64,000 nucleotides of DNA from a virus. The position numbers and the translations under genes were made by a program. The notes under the pieces are model-generated. The model had not been told where the DNA came from and searched no databases. It saw nothing but the letters and a program-made list of their open reading frames with translations. The stretch is from positions 1-64,000 of IMG/VR virus record IMGVR_UViG_3300028025_001913; one strand, written 5' to 3'. Of the stretch, positions 56,732 to 63,762 are shown in pieces. How positions within the stretch are numbered: the stretch's first letter is position 1; each line of letters starts with the position of its first letter.

Positions 56732-57940
56732 TTAGTTTGAATAAATACGTACTGCCTTACCTTGTGGTGGTACGAAGTGGTCGTTGTCTACTACACCCCA
56801 TAACGCAGGCACTTCGACTACTGCGTTGTCACCATCAAGATACCCATCAGTCAACCATATGACACCTTTCGGTTGATACTTCTTCTCCCGAATGTATTGC
56901 ACAACGCACTCAGGAGACGTGCCACCCCCACCGCTAGGCTTGAGGAGTGACGCAATGTTTGCGAACTCATGTGGTTTGAAGTATTGCTCGCCACATACTG
57001 AGCTATCCCACCATATCAAGCGGACACCATCAGGGTTTACGTTCTGTGCGATGCGTGCTATCTCACCGAACACAGTAGGATAGATACCCATCATTGAACC
57101 TGACGTATCGCATGCCACAATCAACTCGCCTGTTGACTCCGAGAAGTGTGACGGCATGACAATGCCTAATGGTAGTAAGCGTTTGTTAGGTGGTGCAAAG
57201 CGAGAGTAGTCGTCGCCCTCACATAGCGCAGTAATCCACTCAGTCATATGCTCACGCCAGTTGGTGTCACGCTTCTGTGTTGCCCTGTCAAGCGGATTGT
57301 TTGCTGACTTGTTGCCTGCTATCTTGTCGGCAAGAAGCTTACCCTGACGTATAGCGTCGTCAATCTGTCTGCCTAACTCGTTGCCCTCTTGCTCGCTTAG
57401 CTTGTCACCGAACACGTGCTTGTCTAACGGCTCGCCACCCTCGCCACCACTCTGTAAGATATACGACTGAACAGGAACTTTTGTAGCGTTGCGTAGCAAG
57501 TCCTGTAACACCTCGATGAATGACCAACCCTTGTACTTGATGTTGTATAAAGGCTTAGGCTCAGTAGTGAACTCGATGAAGGTATGCGTTGGGTCAATCT
57601 CTTGTATCGTGCCGTTGACTACAAAGTCCATCGCAATACCTGTCAACTCAGGATGTTTCTTATCTACCTCAGCATAGATAACGCAATGGTGCAACGCCTT
57701 GTGCAACGCTTCATGTGCTACAACAAAGCGTAACTGCTTACGAGTAAGCGTGTTGACAAACTCATTGCTATAGATAACGTCACGTCCGTTGGTGCAAGCT
57801 GTACCAACAGAGTCGTCAAACTTGACTGCACCTACATACACTACACCTGATAACCCTGCGAACAATGCGTTGTTGCTCAGGTCTACGTGAACGGCAACCA
57901 CCTTATCGTGTGCCGATAATTTCTCCCATGTCTTTGACAT
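56732..57940 (-). CDS. VWA-like protein with metallopeptidase domain (402 aa)
   Basis: The N-terminal 120 residues hold an HExxH zincin motif HEALH (H76-H80, in FVVAHEALHKALHH), and the C-terminal half a VWA domain with the MIDAS start VACDTSGSM (about 272-280). This order is that of DUF2201-type proteins. In MoxR/VWA systems the ATPase remodels a target presented by the VWA partner. A protease domain suggests it can also cut it. The start follows ATATG after the AAA gene with 8 bp between. Confidence 0.78.
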   Translation of the reverse strand: MSKTWEKLSAHDKVVAVHVDLSNNALFAGLSGVVYVGAVKFDDSVGTACTNGRDVIYSNEFVNTLTRKQLRFVVAHEALHKALHHCVIYAEVDKKHPELTGIAMDFVVNGTIQEIDPTHTFIEFTTEPKPLYNIKYKGWSFIEVLQDLLRNATKVPVQSYILQSGGEGGEPLDKHVFGDKLSEQEGNELGRQIDDAIRQGKLLADKIAGNKSANNPLDRATQKRDTNWREHMTEWITALCEGDDYSRFAPPNKRLLPLGIVMPSHFSESTGELIVACDTSGSMMGIYPTVFGEIARIAQNVNPDGVRLIWWDSSVCGEQYFKPHEFANIASLLKPSGGGGTSPECVVQYIREKKYQPKGVIWLTDGYLDGDNAVVEVPALWGVVDNDHFVPPQGKAVRIYSN

Positions 57941-57948
57941 ATAGTTCC

Positions 57949-59064
57949 TTATTTAGTTGTGAAGTAAATCTTGTTGTCGTTGAGTAAGCCTTGGAACGGC
58001 TTGAGTGTAATGAACAACGTAGCCCTTGATGACTCGGCTATGTTGTGGCAGAACATACTCTGTAACTCACGACGATTGCGTAATACATACTCAGTCGCCG
58101 CCTCTGCTTCGTCCCTATCGTTAGCCTGTGTAATACACTTGAGCACAGTAATAATCTGTGCAACAGGGTTAGTAGGGATAGGACAAGTGCTAGGGCTAGC
58201 GACAATCTTAGAGAACGATGGTGTCTCATCACCGAAGCGAATGTATGCACCGAGTATCTCTGCCCCTGCCCGACCAATCGTACCCTCTAAGCAAGCGTGT
58301 AGGGTATCGGCATCCATGTACTCACGCTCAGATACGATGTCGCTTGCTGAGTGTAAAGAACGTGGGCTGATGTAAGCTGACTGCGCTAGCTTGGGGTTGA
58401 AGATAACATCGTTGTGCTTGTCCTGTGGTGTGCCTGCATACTTGCCACCTACCTCGTAGTCAAGGAATGAGTCGAACCATTGTGGATTCTCTTCTGTGCA
58501 AGCAAGGATAATAGGGTCAATGCCATTGTCGATACCCCATTGATACCACTCTTGTTGTGTAGGCTTGCGCATGTACAAGAACACTAGCCTGTTGCGTAAG
58601 TGCGCCTGTATGCTATCGCCTAACCCCTCGGTCGCTAGGTTAGTAGCACAGAACACAACGCTACCCTCCGTCATCTCATAGCTACCAACACGTTGCTCGT
58701 ATACGATGGGTGCTAGCACGTCCTTGATGTACTGCTTAGCCTTGGCTATCTCATCTAAGAATACTAGCGATGGTCTAGAACCATTGACACCCTTCTGATT
58801 GACCTTGCTCACACCGAACCGCTCGTTAGGTAACTCACGTGACACGCCTGCGTCTCGGTCGATATCAGGCATCCATACAGAACCATCGGACAACTGCGTA
58901 CAGTCAAGCTTGACTGATACATGGTTAGCGAAGTGTGGGTCACGCTCTAGTGTGTGGAAGATGCCCGTCTTACCAACGCCATTCTCACCACAGATAACGA
59001 TAGTACGCTTGTGACCAATAGTCTTAACAGCGTTTGCAATTCTTGAAGCATTTAATAATCTCAT
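57949..59064 (-). CDS. MoxR/CobS-like AAA+ ATPase (371 aa)
   Basis: AAA+ P-loop GENGVGKT (26-33), Walker B VFLDEIAKA (D104, E105), and sensor 1 VFCATN (N142). The C-terminal half holds a MoxR-type lid. It would form a hexamer and, with the VWA-metallopeptidase and DUF3150-like proteins, remodel a protein complex. A promoter with an inverted repeat lies in front (59113-59140). Confidence 0.85.
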   Translation of the reverse strand: MRLLNASRIANAVKTIGHKRTIVICGENGVGKTGIFHTLERDPHFANHVSVKLDCTQLSDGSVWMPDIDRDAGVSRELPNERFGVSKVNQKGVNGSRPSLVFLDEIAKAKQYIKDVLAPIVYEQRVGSYEMTEGSVVFCATNLATEGLGDSIQAHLRNRLVFLYMRKPTQQEWYQWGIDNGIDPIILACTEENPQWFDSFLDYEVGGKYAGTPQDKHNDVIFNPKLAQSAYISPRSLHSASDIVSEREYMDADTLHACLEGTIGRAGAEILGAYIRFGDETPSFSKIVASPSTCPIPTNPVAQIITVLKCITQANDRDEAEAATEYVLRNRRELQSMFCHNIAESSRATLFITLKPFQGLLNDNKIYFTTK

Positions 59065-60515: not shown

Positions 60516-60983
60516 TTAATCAAATGATATTTTAATGTTCTCAAACTTCTCTTCTACTTGCTCACGCACCATGTCGTTGATGTCAACGTGGTCGCTCAGT
60601 TGAAACTCGTAGCTGAAGTAGTTCTCAACTATGCTACTAACTTCATCGCTGACAGCATCTTTGATGGCATCTTCAAAGTCCACACCCTCTACTGCCTTGT
60701 TAACCTTTTCGGTAAACCAACTACCCTGTTGCAATACAGTTGTAACGCAGTCTTGCAGGGATTGTTGCTCAGCTAGGGAATTCCCTTGGGCTTGCTTGAT
60801 GACCGAAGTAAGCAGTTGTAGTTGGCTACAGATTGTATTGATGATGCCCTCGATGCTGACCTCGGGTTGCGTGGTTGTGGTGCAGACTTCCTGCACGTGG
60901 GTGTTGAGTAGTCGTTGCATGGCTTCTTCCTCTTCGTTAGTTACAGGCATTGTATTAATTTCTTGTGAAGTTAGTGTGTTCAT
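60516..60983 (-). CDS. Acidic coiled-coil protein (155 aa)
   Basis: 155 residues, acidic, with helical segments (EEEEAMQRLLNTHVQEV, VDFEDAIKDAVSDEVSSIVEN, MVREQVEEKFENIK). One GTGCAG-N5-CTGCAC palindrome sits at codons 30-35 and encodes V-Q-E-V-C-T. ATGA overlap with the upstream membrane-protein gene. Function unknown. Confidence 0.6.
   Translation of the reverse strand: MNTLTSQEINTMPVTNEEEEAMQRLLNTHVQEVCTTTTQPEVSIEGIINTICSQLQLLTSVIKQAQGNSLAEQQSLQDCVTTVLQQGSWFTEKVNKAVEGVDFEDAIKDAVSDEVSSIVENYFSYEFQLSDHVDINDMVREQVEEKFENIKISFD
60880..60896. repeat. 17-bp palindrome GTGCAG-N5-CTGCAC, copy 4
   Basis: Arms around ACTTC (plus strand). It lies 87-103 nt inside the leftward gene 60516-60983 and keeps the same reading phase (V-Q-x-x-C-T) as copies 1 and 3. 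Confidence 0.8.
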
Positions 60984-61201
60984 TGTGGTATCTTTCCTAG
61001 TTTGATTATTACGTCTTCGTCTTCAAATACAACCCTACCCCCTTCGTTGGTAACAGTTGCTTTCTTTAATGCTAGCTGGCATAACATGCCACCCAAACCA
61101 ACGGCTACTTTCATAACCGTCCAGTATCTATAGTGGTAGTAAACGGCACAAGCCGTAGCCACCACACCCCATGCAATCAGGTATATCTCTGCAATACTCA
61201 T
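60980..61201 (-). CDS. Small membrane protein next to the amidotransferase (73 aa)
   Basis: 73 residues. N-terminal TM (IYLIAWGVVATACAVYY) and a second weakly hydrophobic segment (MKVAVGLGGMLCQLAL), then a polar end (EGGRVVFEDEDVIIKLG). ATGA overlaps on both sides couple it to the glutamine-amidotransferase gene. It may tether the amidoligase/amidotransferase pair to the membrane; this is an inference from the operon. Confidence 0.55.
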   Translation of the reverse strand: MSIAEIYLIAWGVVATACAVYYHYRYWTVMKVAVGLGGMLCQLALKKATVTNEGGRVVFEDEDVIIKLGKIPQ

Positions 61202-62223
61202 TTTGCTACTCCTTTCTTATCTTCTAACCAAGGGAATGACTCACGTGCTTTGGCAAAGTCTGACATCACACGCACGAACCAAGACTCATCTATGTAGTCG
61301 TCCTTGAGCAGATAAGTAATCTCGAAGAACGAGTCAAGCCCGAACTTGTTGACGAACTCCCCTGCCTGACGTCTACTCATGTTGCCTGCCTTCTCATACC
61401 CATCGAGACCTAACTCGACAAGCGCATCGTCTATATCTAACTCAGTATCTACGATGTCATCCACCCACTTGGTGTCGTCCCACTCAGAACCATAGCCATG
61501 CGTGTGGTATGGATAGTTGTTATAGTTGCCGTATGTGCTATACGAACTGCCTGCCATAGGTGCTGTGTATGTATACGGCTCAGGCTCAGCGTTGACTTGG
61601 CTACGTGCTAGCTTCATGTCAAGCATGTCCTTTGCCTTGGTAGTCGTCAGGGTAGGTGCTGACCATGCGTAGGTGTTGGACATCCAACGTCCACCCCAAT
61701 ACACACCTTGACTCTGATTGACCACAGTCTTGCGCCCTAGGTTATCCATGATGACGAAGCGATTGTTGCCGATGTGACCACTGATAAGATACTCGAACGA
61801 TGTGGTAAACGCATAGTTAGGATTCTTGGCAAGCATAGGGCGCAGTATGTCATTGATGTAGTGCCATGTATCTGATTTGGTTACATCTGCCTTGTTGCCT
61901 GTGCTGAGCACACCATTGTGCATCATCCACATATCAACGCCATGCTCTTCCTTGTTGAGTATCTCGTATGGGTGGCAGTTGAGCATATCAATATCACCAT
62001 GCGTCTTCATGCGCAAGTGAAAGGCACAGTCCTTGCCGTCGATGTGCTTGGTGTAGAACTCGTACAACTCTGCATCAGTCTTGGGCAATGCCTTCTCTAC
62101 ATACAGCGTGCCATCTACTGCATACATAACACCGATACCATCAGCGTTGTAGTCATAGAAGTCTGACAACCAATGCTCAGGTAGTGACGGGGATGATACG
62201 GATTGGGTAACTAATAAACACAT
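61198..62223 (-). CDS. Class II glutamine amidotransferase (341 aa)
   Basis: Ntn-hydrolase fold. Cys2 after the initiator Met is the nucleophile. GATase-II motifs follow: FHLRMKTHG (R71, H75), NCHPYEI, and MMHNGVL with N103/G104. It releases ammonia or transfers an amide from glutamine. The C-terminal third (about 215-341) has no known domain and is Tyr/Trp/Asn-rich. It directly follows the amidoligase gene (30 bp), a pairing known from phages and bacteria in which the two act on one substrate. Confidence 0.8.
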   Translation of the reverse strand: MCLLVTQSVSSPSLPEHWLSDFYDYNADGIGVMYAVDGTLYVEKALPKTDAELYEFYTKHIDGKDCAFHLRMKTHGDIDMLNCHPYEILNKEEHGVDMWMMHNGVLSTGNKADVTKSDTWHYINDILRPMLAKNPNYAFTTSFEYLISGHIGNNRFVIMDNLGRKTVVNQSQGVYWGGRWMSNTYAWSAPTLTTTKAKDMLDMKLARSQVNAEPEPYTYTAPMAGSSYSTYGNYNNYPYHTHGYGSEWDDTKWVDDIVDTELDIDDALVELGLDGYEKAGNMSRRQAGEFVNKFGLDSFFEITYLLKDDYIDESWFVRVMSDFAKARESFPWLEDKKGVAK

Positions 62224-62253
62224 ATGTAATTCTCCTTGATTTGATTGGGTTGG

Positions 62254-63723
62254 TTAGGCTACACGCTTCTCGATGGGTTGGGATGGTGGGTTGTCCATGC
62301 GTGGGTTAGGCTTGACCAAGGCAAGCGTAGGTAGTGAGTACCCCTTCTCACGTAGGTACTGCCGTAAGAACTTGGTATCCTTACGCTGATTGGGCTGGCA
62401 TATGAACTTGATGAAGTTCTCAGTCGTCAACTCGGTAACCCCTGCATCACGACAGAAGAACCACGTTGCGTAGGTAAACTCTAAGCACGCCATCTGTGTC
62501 TCGTAGCGTAGCGTGCCTTTGAATATCCTAAACTCTACAGTCGCAGGGTTGTTGAAGTTAACTGCCTCAGTCCTATCAGGGTTGAGCCGTCGCAGTTGCT
62601 CGTTCTTATTGTTGTAACCCTTAGCGTTCTTGAGCCAATCATACGATGCCTTCTTGTTGTGTATCTTGGCATAGTGGTGGTCGCTACGTCTTGCGATGTC
62701 CCTGATTAACTTCTGATTGTTGCTGTCGTTGATGAAGAAGACTATCTTGCACCCATGAAACATCGTCATGTCACCCTTGGATATGTGAACGTGTAGCCCA
62801 CAAGTCCTAGTATCGTGTGACTTGACGTAACGCCAAGGCTTCTTGAAGAACTGTAGCATCTGAGCATGAACGTCTAGCCCTGTCCAACCTGTAACCATCT
62901 CGAAGCCGTAGTCAAGAGAGCCGTCGTCCTCGATGTGTATGTACTGATGCTCAGTACCATCGTCATGCGTGTAGTGCTTGAGTTGACCATACAACTCCTC
63001 GGCTTTGTCATACCTACTAACCTCATCCCTGTTGACCTCGACCTCTAACTCCATGCCTAGGAATATCTTGGGGTTGCGCTCATCGAAGGCTGATGGGATA
63101 TGTTGCAGTATGTCCTTGCCCGAGTGTCGTCCACCTATCGGATAACCATCGTCGTCATCATCGTTATTGCGCTCGTTCTCTTCTTCCTCTTCGTAATAGT
63201 CTTCCTCTGTTACGTATGTGCCACGTCCCTCAGACCAACGATAGTTATTGTCACGACAACTATCGCATACCCAATAGTCGCCATCGTAGCACCAACTACC
63301 ATTATCTACGTGGTCAATGTGATTGCAATCCTCGCAACACTTGGCGTCTTCGTTAAACTTATCCTCTATGACATCAGCCCAATCGGTGCGCATACCATCA
63401 CGCACGAAACGAAACTGCTCTGAGTTAACTAACGAATACATACTATCCACGTCTTCGTCTCTGATATACGAACGTACCATGACACCAAAGGCTGATACTA
63501 GGCGCATCTTCTCAGCAAGAGTCGCTTGGTCAAGCCTATGAGTCGCACTAAACCTATTGCTACGAAAGCGATAGTAGAAGTCGTTGTTGCTTCGAATGGT
63601 CTCACGACACCGAGACATCAAGTCCTCCCTAGTGAAGTAACTAGGGTCTCTTTCAATACGTGCAACGCCTTCGTTGAAGGACACAAGCACAGGCACTAAT
63701 GTTGTAGCAGTTGATATGGGCAT
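62254..63723 (-). CDS. ATP-grasp-like amidoligase (COOH-NH2 ligase) (489 aa)
   Basis: The pattern of Amidoligase_2: GMELEVE (about 222-228), DDGSLDYGFEMVTG, CGLHVHIS (about 306-313) and TVEFRIFKGT (about 392). The N-terminal third carries a zinc ribbon CCEDCNH...CYDGDYWVCDSC (about 128-160). The family forms amide or peptide bonds between carboxyl and amino groups. The ATG 63721-63723 has GAGGAAAAG upstream; a GTG frame extends to 63762 into the 17-bp palindrome. Substrate unknown: cell-wall peptide, host protein or metabolite. Confidence 0.8.
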   Translation of the reverse strand: MPISTATTLVPVLVSFNEGVARIERDPSYFTREDLMSRCRETIRSNNDFYYRFRSNRFSATHRLDQATLAEKMRLVSAFGVMVRSYIRDEDVDSMYSLVNSEQFRFVRDGMRTDWADVIEDKFNEDAKCCEDCNHIDHVDNGSWCYDGDYWVCDSCRDNNYRWSEGRGTYVTEEDYYEEEEENERNNDDDDDGYPIGGRHSGKDILQHIPSAFDERNPKIFLGMELEVEVNRDEVSRYDKAEELYGQLKHYTHDDGTEHQYIHIEDDGSLDYGFEMVTGWTGLDVHAQMLQFFKKPWRYVKSHDTRTCGLHVHISKGDMTMFHGCKIVFFINDSNNQKLIRDIARRSDHHYAKIHNKKASYDWLKNAKGYNNKNEQLRRLNPDRTEAVNFNNPATVEFRIFKGTLRYETQMACLEFTYATWFFCRDAGVTELTTENFIKFICQPNQRKDTKFLRQYLREKGYSLPTLALVKPNPRMDNPPSQPIEKRVA

Positions 63724-63745: not shown

Positions 63746-63762
63746 GTGCAGGTTTTCTGCAC
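63746..63762. repeat. 17-bp palindrome GTGCAG-N5-CTGCAC, copy 5
   Basis: Arms around GTTTT (plus strand). It lies 23-39 nt upstream of the amidoligase start, in the leader. The TTGTGATAC direct repeats (63780-63788, 63792-63800) are just upstream. Confidence 0.8.

Follow-up and report, generated by a model that had tools for sequence, protein, structure and literature searches.

The window analyzed here comprises 64,000 bases of a 64,604-base phage record (IMG/VR record IMGVR_UViG_3300028025_001913). Toward its far end, two adjacent genes on the minus strand encode an Amidoligase_2 protein and a protein with the fold of class II glutamine amidotransferases, and this pair is the subject of the present analysis. 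The order of transcription is amidoligase, amidotransferase, a 73-residue membrane protein, and a 155-residue protein. An earlier note on this DNA had read the first three as an operon, and all three genes are indeed present. The features of the two enzymes are as follows.

62254–63723, minus strand: Amidoligase_2 coding sequence (glutamine synthetase superfamily ligase), 489 residues, ATG at 63723; PF12224, PHROGs 16683 and 2443, AlphaFold2 model
63256–63336, minus strand: four-cysteine zinc-ribbon-like motif of the ligase, C130-x2-C133 ... C153-x2-C156; from conservation
63043–63057, minus strand: ligase GxExE motif G223-E225-E227 (GMELEVE), predicted catalytic strand 1; invariant, model strand 222–230
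62899–62925, minus strand: ligase D267-G-S-L...G273-x-E275 motif; D267, G273, and E275 invariant, model strand 273–278
62785–62793, minus strand: ligase H311-x-H313 motif (TCGLHVH), counterpart of GSGMHxH in glutamine synthetase; invariant, hhalign to glutamine synthetase and GCS2
62527–62541, minus strand: ligase T395-x-E397-x-R399 motif, counterpart of RIExR in glutamine synthetase; invariant, hhalign to glutamine synthetase
61198–62223, minus strand: coding sequence with the class II glutamine amidotransferase (N-terminal nucleophile, Ntn) fold, 341 residues; PurF and GlmS profile matches, AlphaFold2, Foldseek
62218–62220, minus strand: amidotransferase Cys2, predicted N-terminal nucleophile; C in 80/80 relatives
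62011–62013, minus strand: amidotransferase Arg71 (RxxTHG), predicted to bind the glutamine carboxylate; R in 80/80
61912–61920, minus strand: amidotransferase H102-N103-G104, predicted oxyanion hole; N and G in 80/80, H in 79/80

The Ligase Resembles Glutamine Synthetase

The ligase matches Pfam family Amidoligase_2 with an expect value (E) of 2e-5 and 25 bits, above the curated cut-off of 22, as well as PHROG 16683 (7.5e-25) and PHROG 2443, labeled "amidoligase" (2.7e-8). The motifs GMELEVE, CGLHVHIS, and EFRIFKG are all present. Across 93 aligned relatives, taken from phages and from bacterial contigs, 13 residues of catalytic type are invariant (G223, E225, E227, D267, G273, E275, G309, H311, H313, N389, T395, E397, and R399); GxExE, HxH, and ExR, the metal/ATP strand motifs, are kept in every sequence. 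In the AlphaFold2 model, which has a mean predicted local distance difference test (pLDDT) score of 88.3, these main motifs fall on successive strands at residues 222–230, 310–315, and 395–401, respectively.

The protein had at first been taken for an ATP-grasp-like enzyme. That label is wrong, because the best PDB matches of the model, 17 in number, all belong to the glutamine synthetase (GS) superfamily (GS itself, gamma-glutamylmethylamide synthetase, YbdK, and the Pup ligase and deamidase PafA/Dop), and none is an ATP-grasp protein. ATP-grasp is likewise absent among the Pfam and PHROG matches. Alignment with hhalign points the same way: GLHVHI and VEFR of the ligase pair with GMHVHQ and IETR of GS, and GMELEVE and CGLHVH pair with GVEEEF and WGVHVH of GCS2. 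An ATP-grasp identity was rejected on these listed matches and alignments, and the predicted fold appears GS-like. Among predicted viral structures, most of the named matches are amidoligases, the enzymes of phages tf and CW02 among them.

The catalytic strand motifs are shared with GS, YbdK, and PafA/Dop, and the predicted fold resembles theirs in global matches that are weak (E 0.002 or worse). The phage ligase differs from these enzymes in its N-terminal helical region, its zinc ribbon, and the near-constant presence of an amidotransferase-fold partner. The ribbon, described earlier as an extra element, is there but is not extra. Each of its cysteines (C130, C133, C153, and C156) is conserved in 89–90 of the 93 relatives, about 89 of which have the ribbon; by this alignment the predicted four-cysteine ribbon is typical of the ligase clade and no oddity.

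The Amidotransferase Partner

When searched against Pfam on its own, the second protein falls below threshold (GATase_4, E = 0.0055). Its family profile gives clear matches in the PDB to PurF (2.4e-12) and GlmS (5e-11). A Foldseek search with the AlphaFold2 model (mean pLDDT 84.9) finds the glutaminase domain of GlmS (2e-6), then EgtC (E 1.4e-4) and PurF; by these three matches the modeled fold is the Ntn alpha-beta-beta-alpha fold of class II amidotransferases. The intact Cys2 and His-Asn-Gly noticed in the earlier note are borne out by the relatives. C2, R71, G76, N103, and G104 are invariant in all 80, and H102 occurs in 79, so that the protein retains an intact set of predicted glutaminase residues.

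The Two Genes Are Nearly Inseparable

Searching collections of viral sequences and of genomes gave 153 loci found through the ligase and 80 found through the amidotransferase, partly overlapping the loci collected earlier. Neighbors were counted by six-frame search with iterated profiles in dereplicated loci that had enough sequence. The viral sample consists of the best 80 of 268 matches, and close relatives are therefore over-represented in it. Unlinked genes in relatives had been named beforehand as the observation that would speak against the pair. What was found is an amidotransferase directly downstream of the ligase and on the same strand in 44 of 44 viral loci and in 56 of 59 loci from bacterial or archaeal contigs; in two of the three exceptions, a tandem of two ligases precedes the amidotransferase. 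In the reverse direction, a ligase adjoins the amidotransferase in 69 of 70 newly fetched loci found through the latter. The distance matrices of the two proteins correlate at r = 0.82 for the viral and 0.93 for the bacterial loci, values that none of 1000 permutations reached. The more distant phages Marvin and MEP402 also retain the arrangement. A ligase relative in Clostridioides phage AR1086-1 (locus L013) has no amidotransferase downstream; the next gene encodes an RlaP-like RNA-repair protein.

Two apparent departures from this pattern were discarded. A natural fusion of ligase and amidotransferase seemed to exist in locus L152, as a 681-residue frame. There the C-terminus of the ligase continues in a different frame and the amidotransferase has an ATG-TGC start of its own; a frameshift or an assembly error is the best account of the joined frame. 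Thirty-two bacterial loci with an apparently lone ligase proved to be an artefact of too narrow an amidotransferase profile combined with an overlap filter, and disappeared when the iterated profile and six-frame search were used.

A Candidate Split Amidating Enzyme

The two proteins are read here, with about even confidence, as a split glutamine-dependent amidating (carboxylate–amine ligase) enzyme of mobile elements. This reading is favored because the ammonia-producing enzymes GlmS and PurF rank above or level with EgtC, in sequence and in fold, and because the two genes are nearly inseparable. The amidotransferase would split glutamine and hand ammonia to the ligase, which would activate a carboxylate with ATP and form an amide on it. 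The acceptor of the ammonia or amine may be a host or a phage molecule and need not be peptidoglycan. The zinc ribbon suggests a macromolecular acceptor, either protein or nucleic acid, and the position in the operon suggests action early in infection.

Several observations weigh against a split amidating enzyme. The PDB matches of the ligase model are weak (E 0.002 to 0.2, probability up to 0.99, template-modeling scores of 0.2–0.4). GS uses free ammonia, and its fold therefore does not require a glutaminase partner. Asp118, the expected binder of the glutamine amino group, is found in only 62 of the 80 amidotransferase relatives. The residues that are conserved would serve a gamma-glutamyl hydrolase as well, and EgtC is among the structural matches. 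Since close relatives dominate the viral sample, part of the observed linkage reflects shared descent.

It is possible, though on the unlikely side, that the pair builds and trims gamma-glutamyl compounds in the manner of EgtA/EgtC or PuuA/PuuD. The ligase would then link an amino acid, glutamate or a different one, to an amine or peptide, and its partner, acting as a hydrolase, would take off or edit the gamma-glutamyl group. Within the GS superfamily, EgtA falls in the GCS2 branch; taken with the match of the amidotransferase model to EgtC, this means that the same two folds already form a known pathway. EgtA–EgtC of ergothioneine biosynthesis indeed resembles the phage pair in combining a GS-superfamily ligase with a hydrolase of class II amidotransferase fold. 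However, EgtC removes a gamma-glutamyl group, whereas the phage amidotransferase family is closer in sequence to GlmS and PurF, and profile scores rank GlmS, PurF, and AsnB with no EgtC model among them. Published phage cassettes of this type also hold a gamma-glutamyl cyclotransferase (PMC5498523, PMC3890496), as does phiM6, but none is detectable in this phage or in 15 relatives, most of which are fragments.

The probabilities attached to these two mechanisms, and to the biological roles considered below (cell wall, counter-defense, and metabolism), overlap and do not sum to one, as mechanisms and roles answer different questions.

Related Phage Cassettes and the Cell Wall

Phage cassettes with an amidoligase, a class II amidotransferase, an ATP-grasp protein, and a gamma-glutamyl cyclotransferase have been published as peptidoglycan-modification or nitrogen-metabolism genes (PMC5498523, PMC3890496, PMC6256558, PMC10580990, PMC10945688); where these accounts deal with the cassettes, they do not test substrate or reaction directly. 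Such cassettes are known from LUZ24, RIO-1, phiM6, and OM43 phages. The earlier note's description of a poorly understood phage biochemical system is apt. The version found here is a minimal variant of that published module. Like it, the podovirus "peptidoglycan modification cassette" (RIO-1, phiEco32, LUZ24, tf, CW02, phiM6, and UFV-P2, PMC3890496) has Amidoligase_2 together with a class II amidotransferase within a single early cassette, but it additionally includes ATP-grasp, gamma-glutamyl cyclotransferase, and often a second COOH–NH2 ligase. The ligase of phiM6 also differs in having no zinc ribbon. Neither PF06094 nor PF14243 nor the ATP-grasp profile of the relatives matches anything in the record, a second COOH–NH2 ligase not having been sought by its own family. 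By these searches this phage has only the core of two genes and a membrane protein, and neither ATP-grasp nor gamma-glutamyl cyclotransferase is detectable in it.

The OM43 phages MEP401 and MEP402 (PMC10580990) share adjacent Amidoligase_2 and class II amidotransferase genes near the start of the early region, but the ligase core is about 28% identical and the amidotransferase 33%. In mycobacteriophage Marvin, amidoligase gene 105 (profile E 9.7e-54) is immediately followed by amidotransferase gene 106 (E 6.9e-38), and the ligase has a cysteine-rich N-terminus as here; the host, in contrast, is mycobacterial. Several deposited relatives of Marvin label both genes "glutamine amidotransferase domain protein," and the amidoligase label in many mycobacteriophage records appears to have been carried over from the neighboring amidotransferase gene.

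MurT is a Mur ligase and GatD a class I amidotransferase, and their folds are therefore unrelated to those of the phage pair. MurT–GatD is nonetheless similar in being a split amidating enzyme, with ligase and glutaminase encoded by separate adjacent genes, and its amidation of peptidoglycan is a known reaction (PMC5871853, PMC3267633). This precedent, and the small membrane protein coupled to the pair, would fit the proposal that such cassettes modify peptidoglycan or the cell surface and so block superinfection. The idea is credited to Iyer et al. (2009) and to Hardies et al. (2013), and later papers repeat it for RIO-1, phiM6, and OM43 phages (PMC5498523, PMC6256558, PMC10580990). Modification of a host surface was also an example given in the earlier note. 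For related cassettes, a change to the host surface or cell wall is a published hypothesis, but we consider it unlikely. Most relatives lack the membrane protein, Pfam finds a wall-binding domain in neither enzyme, and the hosts of the pair differ greatly in their walls.

The last point is sharpest for haloarchaeal viruses. In PhiCh1 and ChaoS9, a class II amidotransferase gene lies 4 nt behind gp41 and gp45, respectively. The gp41 protein carries the ordered motifs G-x-E-x-E ... H-x-H ... T-x-E-x-R, and its ChaoS9 counterpart is 89% identical to it. None of 20,000 shuffles reproduced the motif order, for a pattern written after the sequences had been viewed. Neither Pfam nor the ligase family profile recognizes gp41, which is probably an amidoligase, assigned by motif only. 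Haloarchaea, including the Natrialba and Halobacterium hosts of viruses with this gene order, are not known to have murein. Thus, if the assignment of gp41 holds, peptidoglycan is not the general target. A Lokiarchaeota contig with the pair (L160) was not used as archaeal evidence; it represents one of 99 genomes of the phylum and is a 4-kb contig of a metagenome assembly.

A role in feeding the infected host through auxiliary nitrogen or amino-acid metabolism, the proposal made for Phage-ZRK32, is very improbable. A phage with amidoligase, amidotransferase, glutathione synthase, and cyclotransferase is reported to promote host growth on ammonium or nitrate, but in the relevant part of the paper the link to these genes is drawn from gene presence and not from single-gene tests (PMC10945688). 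The amidotransferase would use up glutamine rather than supply it, and the pair also resides on likely integrative elements beside recombination genes.

The Pair in Mobile DNA

In phage contigs the pair adjoins packaging (terminase) or replication genes. Among the bacterial contigs, whose loci were classified in part, neighbors include integrases, resolvases, YqaJ exonuclease, Rad52 annealase, and Prim-Pol, which suggests that these loci are prophages and integrative elements. The pair occurs in viruses and other mobile DNA of bacteria, and probably in that of archaea as well.

In the present record, the pair forms the 5' end of a leftward unit with primase, helicase, polymerase, and exonuclease genes; a MoxR-type ATPase and a metallopeptidase–VWA protein are encoded further downstream on the same strand, before the replication genes. 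The terminase genes lie on the opposite strand near the other end of the record, and in many relatives the pair is likewise divergent from the terminase. This layout is consistent with an early position of the pair in infection, which the earlier note had considered plausible.

An early counter-defense or establishment function, in which the pair would inactivate or tag a host protein or small molecule that stops incoming DNA, might account for where the pair is found: in phages, in prophages, and on likely integrative elements, with genes of early recombination and replication beside it. The protein-tagging GS-fold enzymes PafA/Dop are among the structural matches of the ligase. Nevertheless, we regard such a function as quite unlikely when taken by itself: position is no proof of role, and neither the ligase nor the amidotransferase matches any PADLOC model of anti-phage defense. 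DNA hypermodification was considered, since amide-bearing phage bases are known, and was set aside; no base-modification gene was found among the window proteins scanned, which cover part of the genes.

Returning to the split amidating enzyme, a more specific form of it is offered tentatively and judged rather unlikely. In it, a GS-fold, two-protein, glutamine-dependent enzyme would use the zinc ribbon for docking and mark a macromolecule, protein or nucleic acid, that is common to bacteria and haloarchaea. Such an enzyme would serve many unrelated mobile elements as a factor for early establishment or counter-defense and would not act on the cell wall.

Neighboring Genes and a Repeated Palindrome

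Three further features adjoin the pair.

60980–61201, minus strand: small single-helix membrane protein, 73 residues, ATGA overlap with the amidotransferase stop; homologues in 9 dereplicated loci
60516–60983, minus strand: 155-residue protein whose gene overlaps that of the membrane protein by 4 nt; 10 dereplicated loci have a homologue
63746–63762, no strand: 17-bp palindrome GTGCAGGTTTTCTGCAC, shortly before the ribosome-binding site of the amidoligase gene; the record has six copies, this one included

The membrane protein, whose coupling by ATGA overlap had been recognized in the earlier note, has one hydrophobic stretch (residues 2–20), and all homologues have a single N-terminal one. 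It is regarded as accessory because it is found in only a subset of the relatives. Six dereplicated viral loci encode an ATP-grasp-like protein a few genes further on from the pair; where a homologue of the membrane protein is present, the ATP-grasp-like protein comes right after it. Pfam support for the ATP-grasp label is weak (R2K_3, E = 0.009).

The MoxR-type ATPase and the metallopeptidase–VWA (DUF2201) protein occupy 56732–57940 and 57949–59064 of the window. Proteins of matching size lie at the equivalent place in loci L016, L054, and L057, the likeness being one of size only. In jumbo phages a MoxR–vWA pair has been proposed as a virion-assembly chaperone (PMC7824862). Upstream of the amidoligase, beyond 63816 on the minus strand, is a gene for a cysteine-pair protein, homologues of which occur in 16 dereplicated loci; the two homologues scanned gave no Pfam match. 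A protein of the uncharacterized family DUF960 adjoins the pair in 17 dereplicated bacterial loci, for example the clostridial loci L106, L111, and L125.

The palindrome next to the pair, GTGCAGN5CTGCAC, had also been noticed earlier. It occurs at 485, 943, 1409, 60880, and 63746 of the window and at position 64366 of the record, six copies against 0.21 expected by chance at up to 3 mismatches. All copies lie within 1.5 kb of one end of the record or 3.8 kb of the other, and several translate in frame as VQxxCT within genes. A relative whose ligase is 52% identical (L018) has seven copies, three of which are placed as in this phage: one within the upstream gene, one ahead of the amidoligase, and one in the 155-residue gene. 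From this distribution the palindrome looks like a repeated operator or replication site.

Implications

Amidoligase cassettes of phages have repeatedly been annotated as cell-wall or nitrogen genes. The present results correct the predicted fold of the ligase, and the haloarchaeal viruses make peptidoglycan a doubtful general target. In Mycobacterium smegmatis, genes 105 and 106 of Marvin offer a tractable system in which to test the function of the pair. The results define the minimal unit of these cassettes as a ligase and an amidotransferase that are almost inseparable across viruses, prophages, and likely integrative elements.

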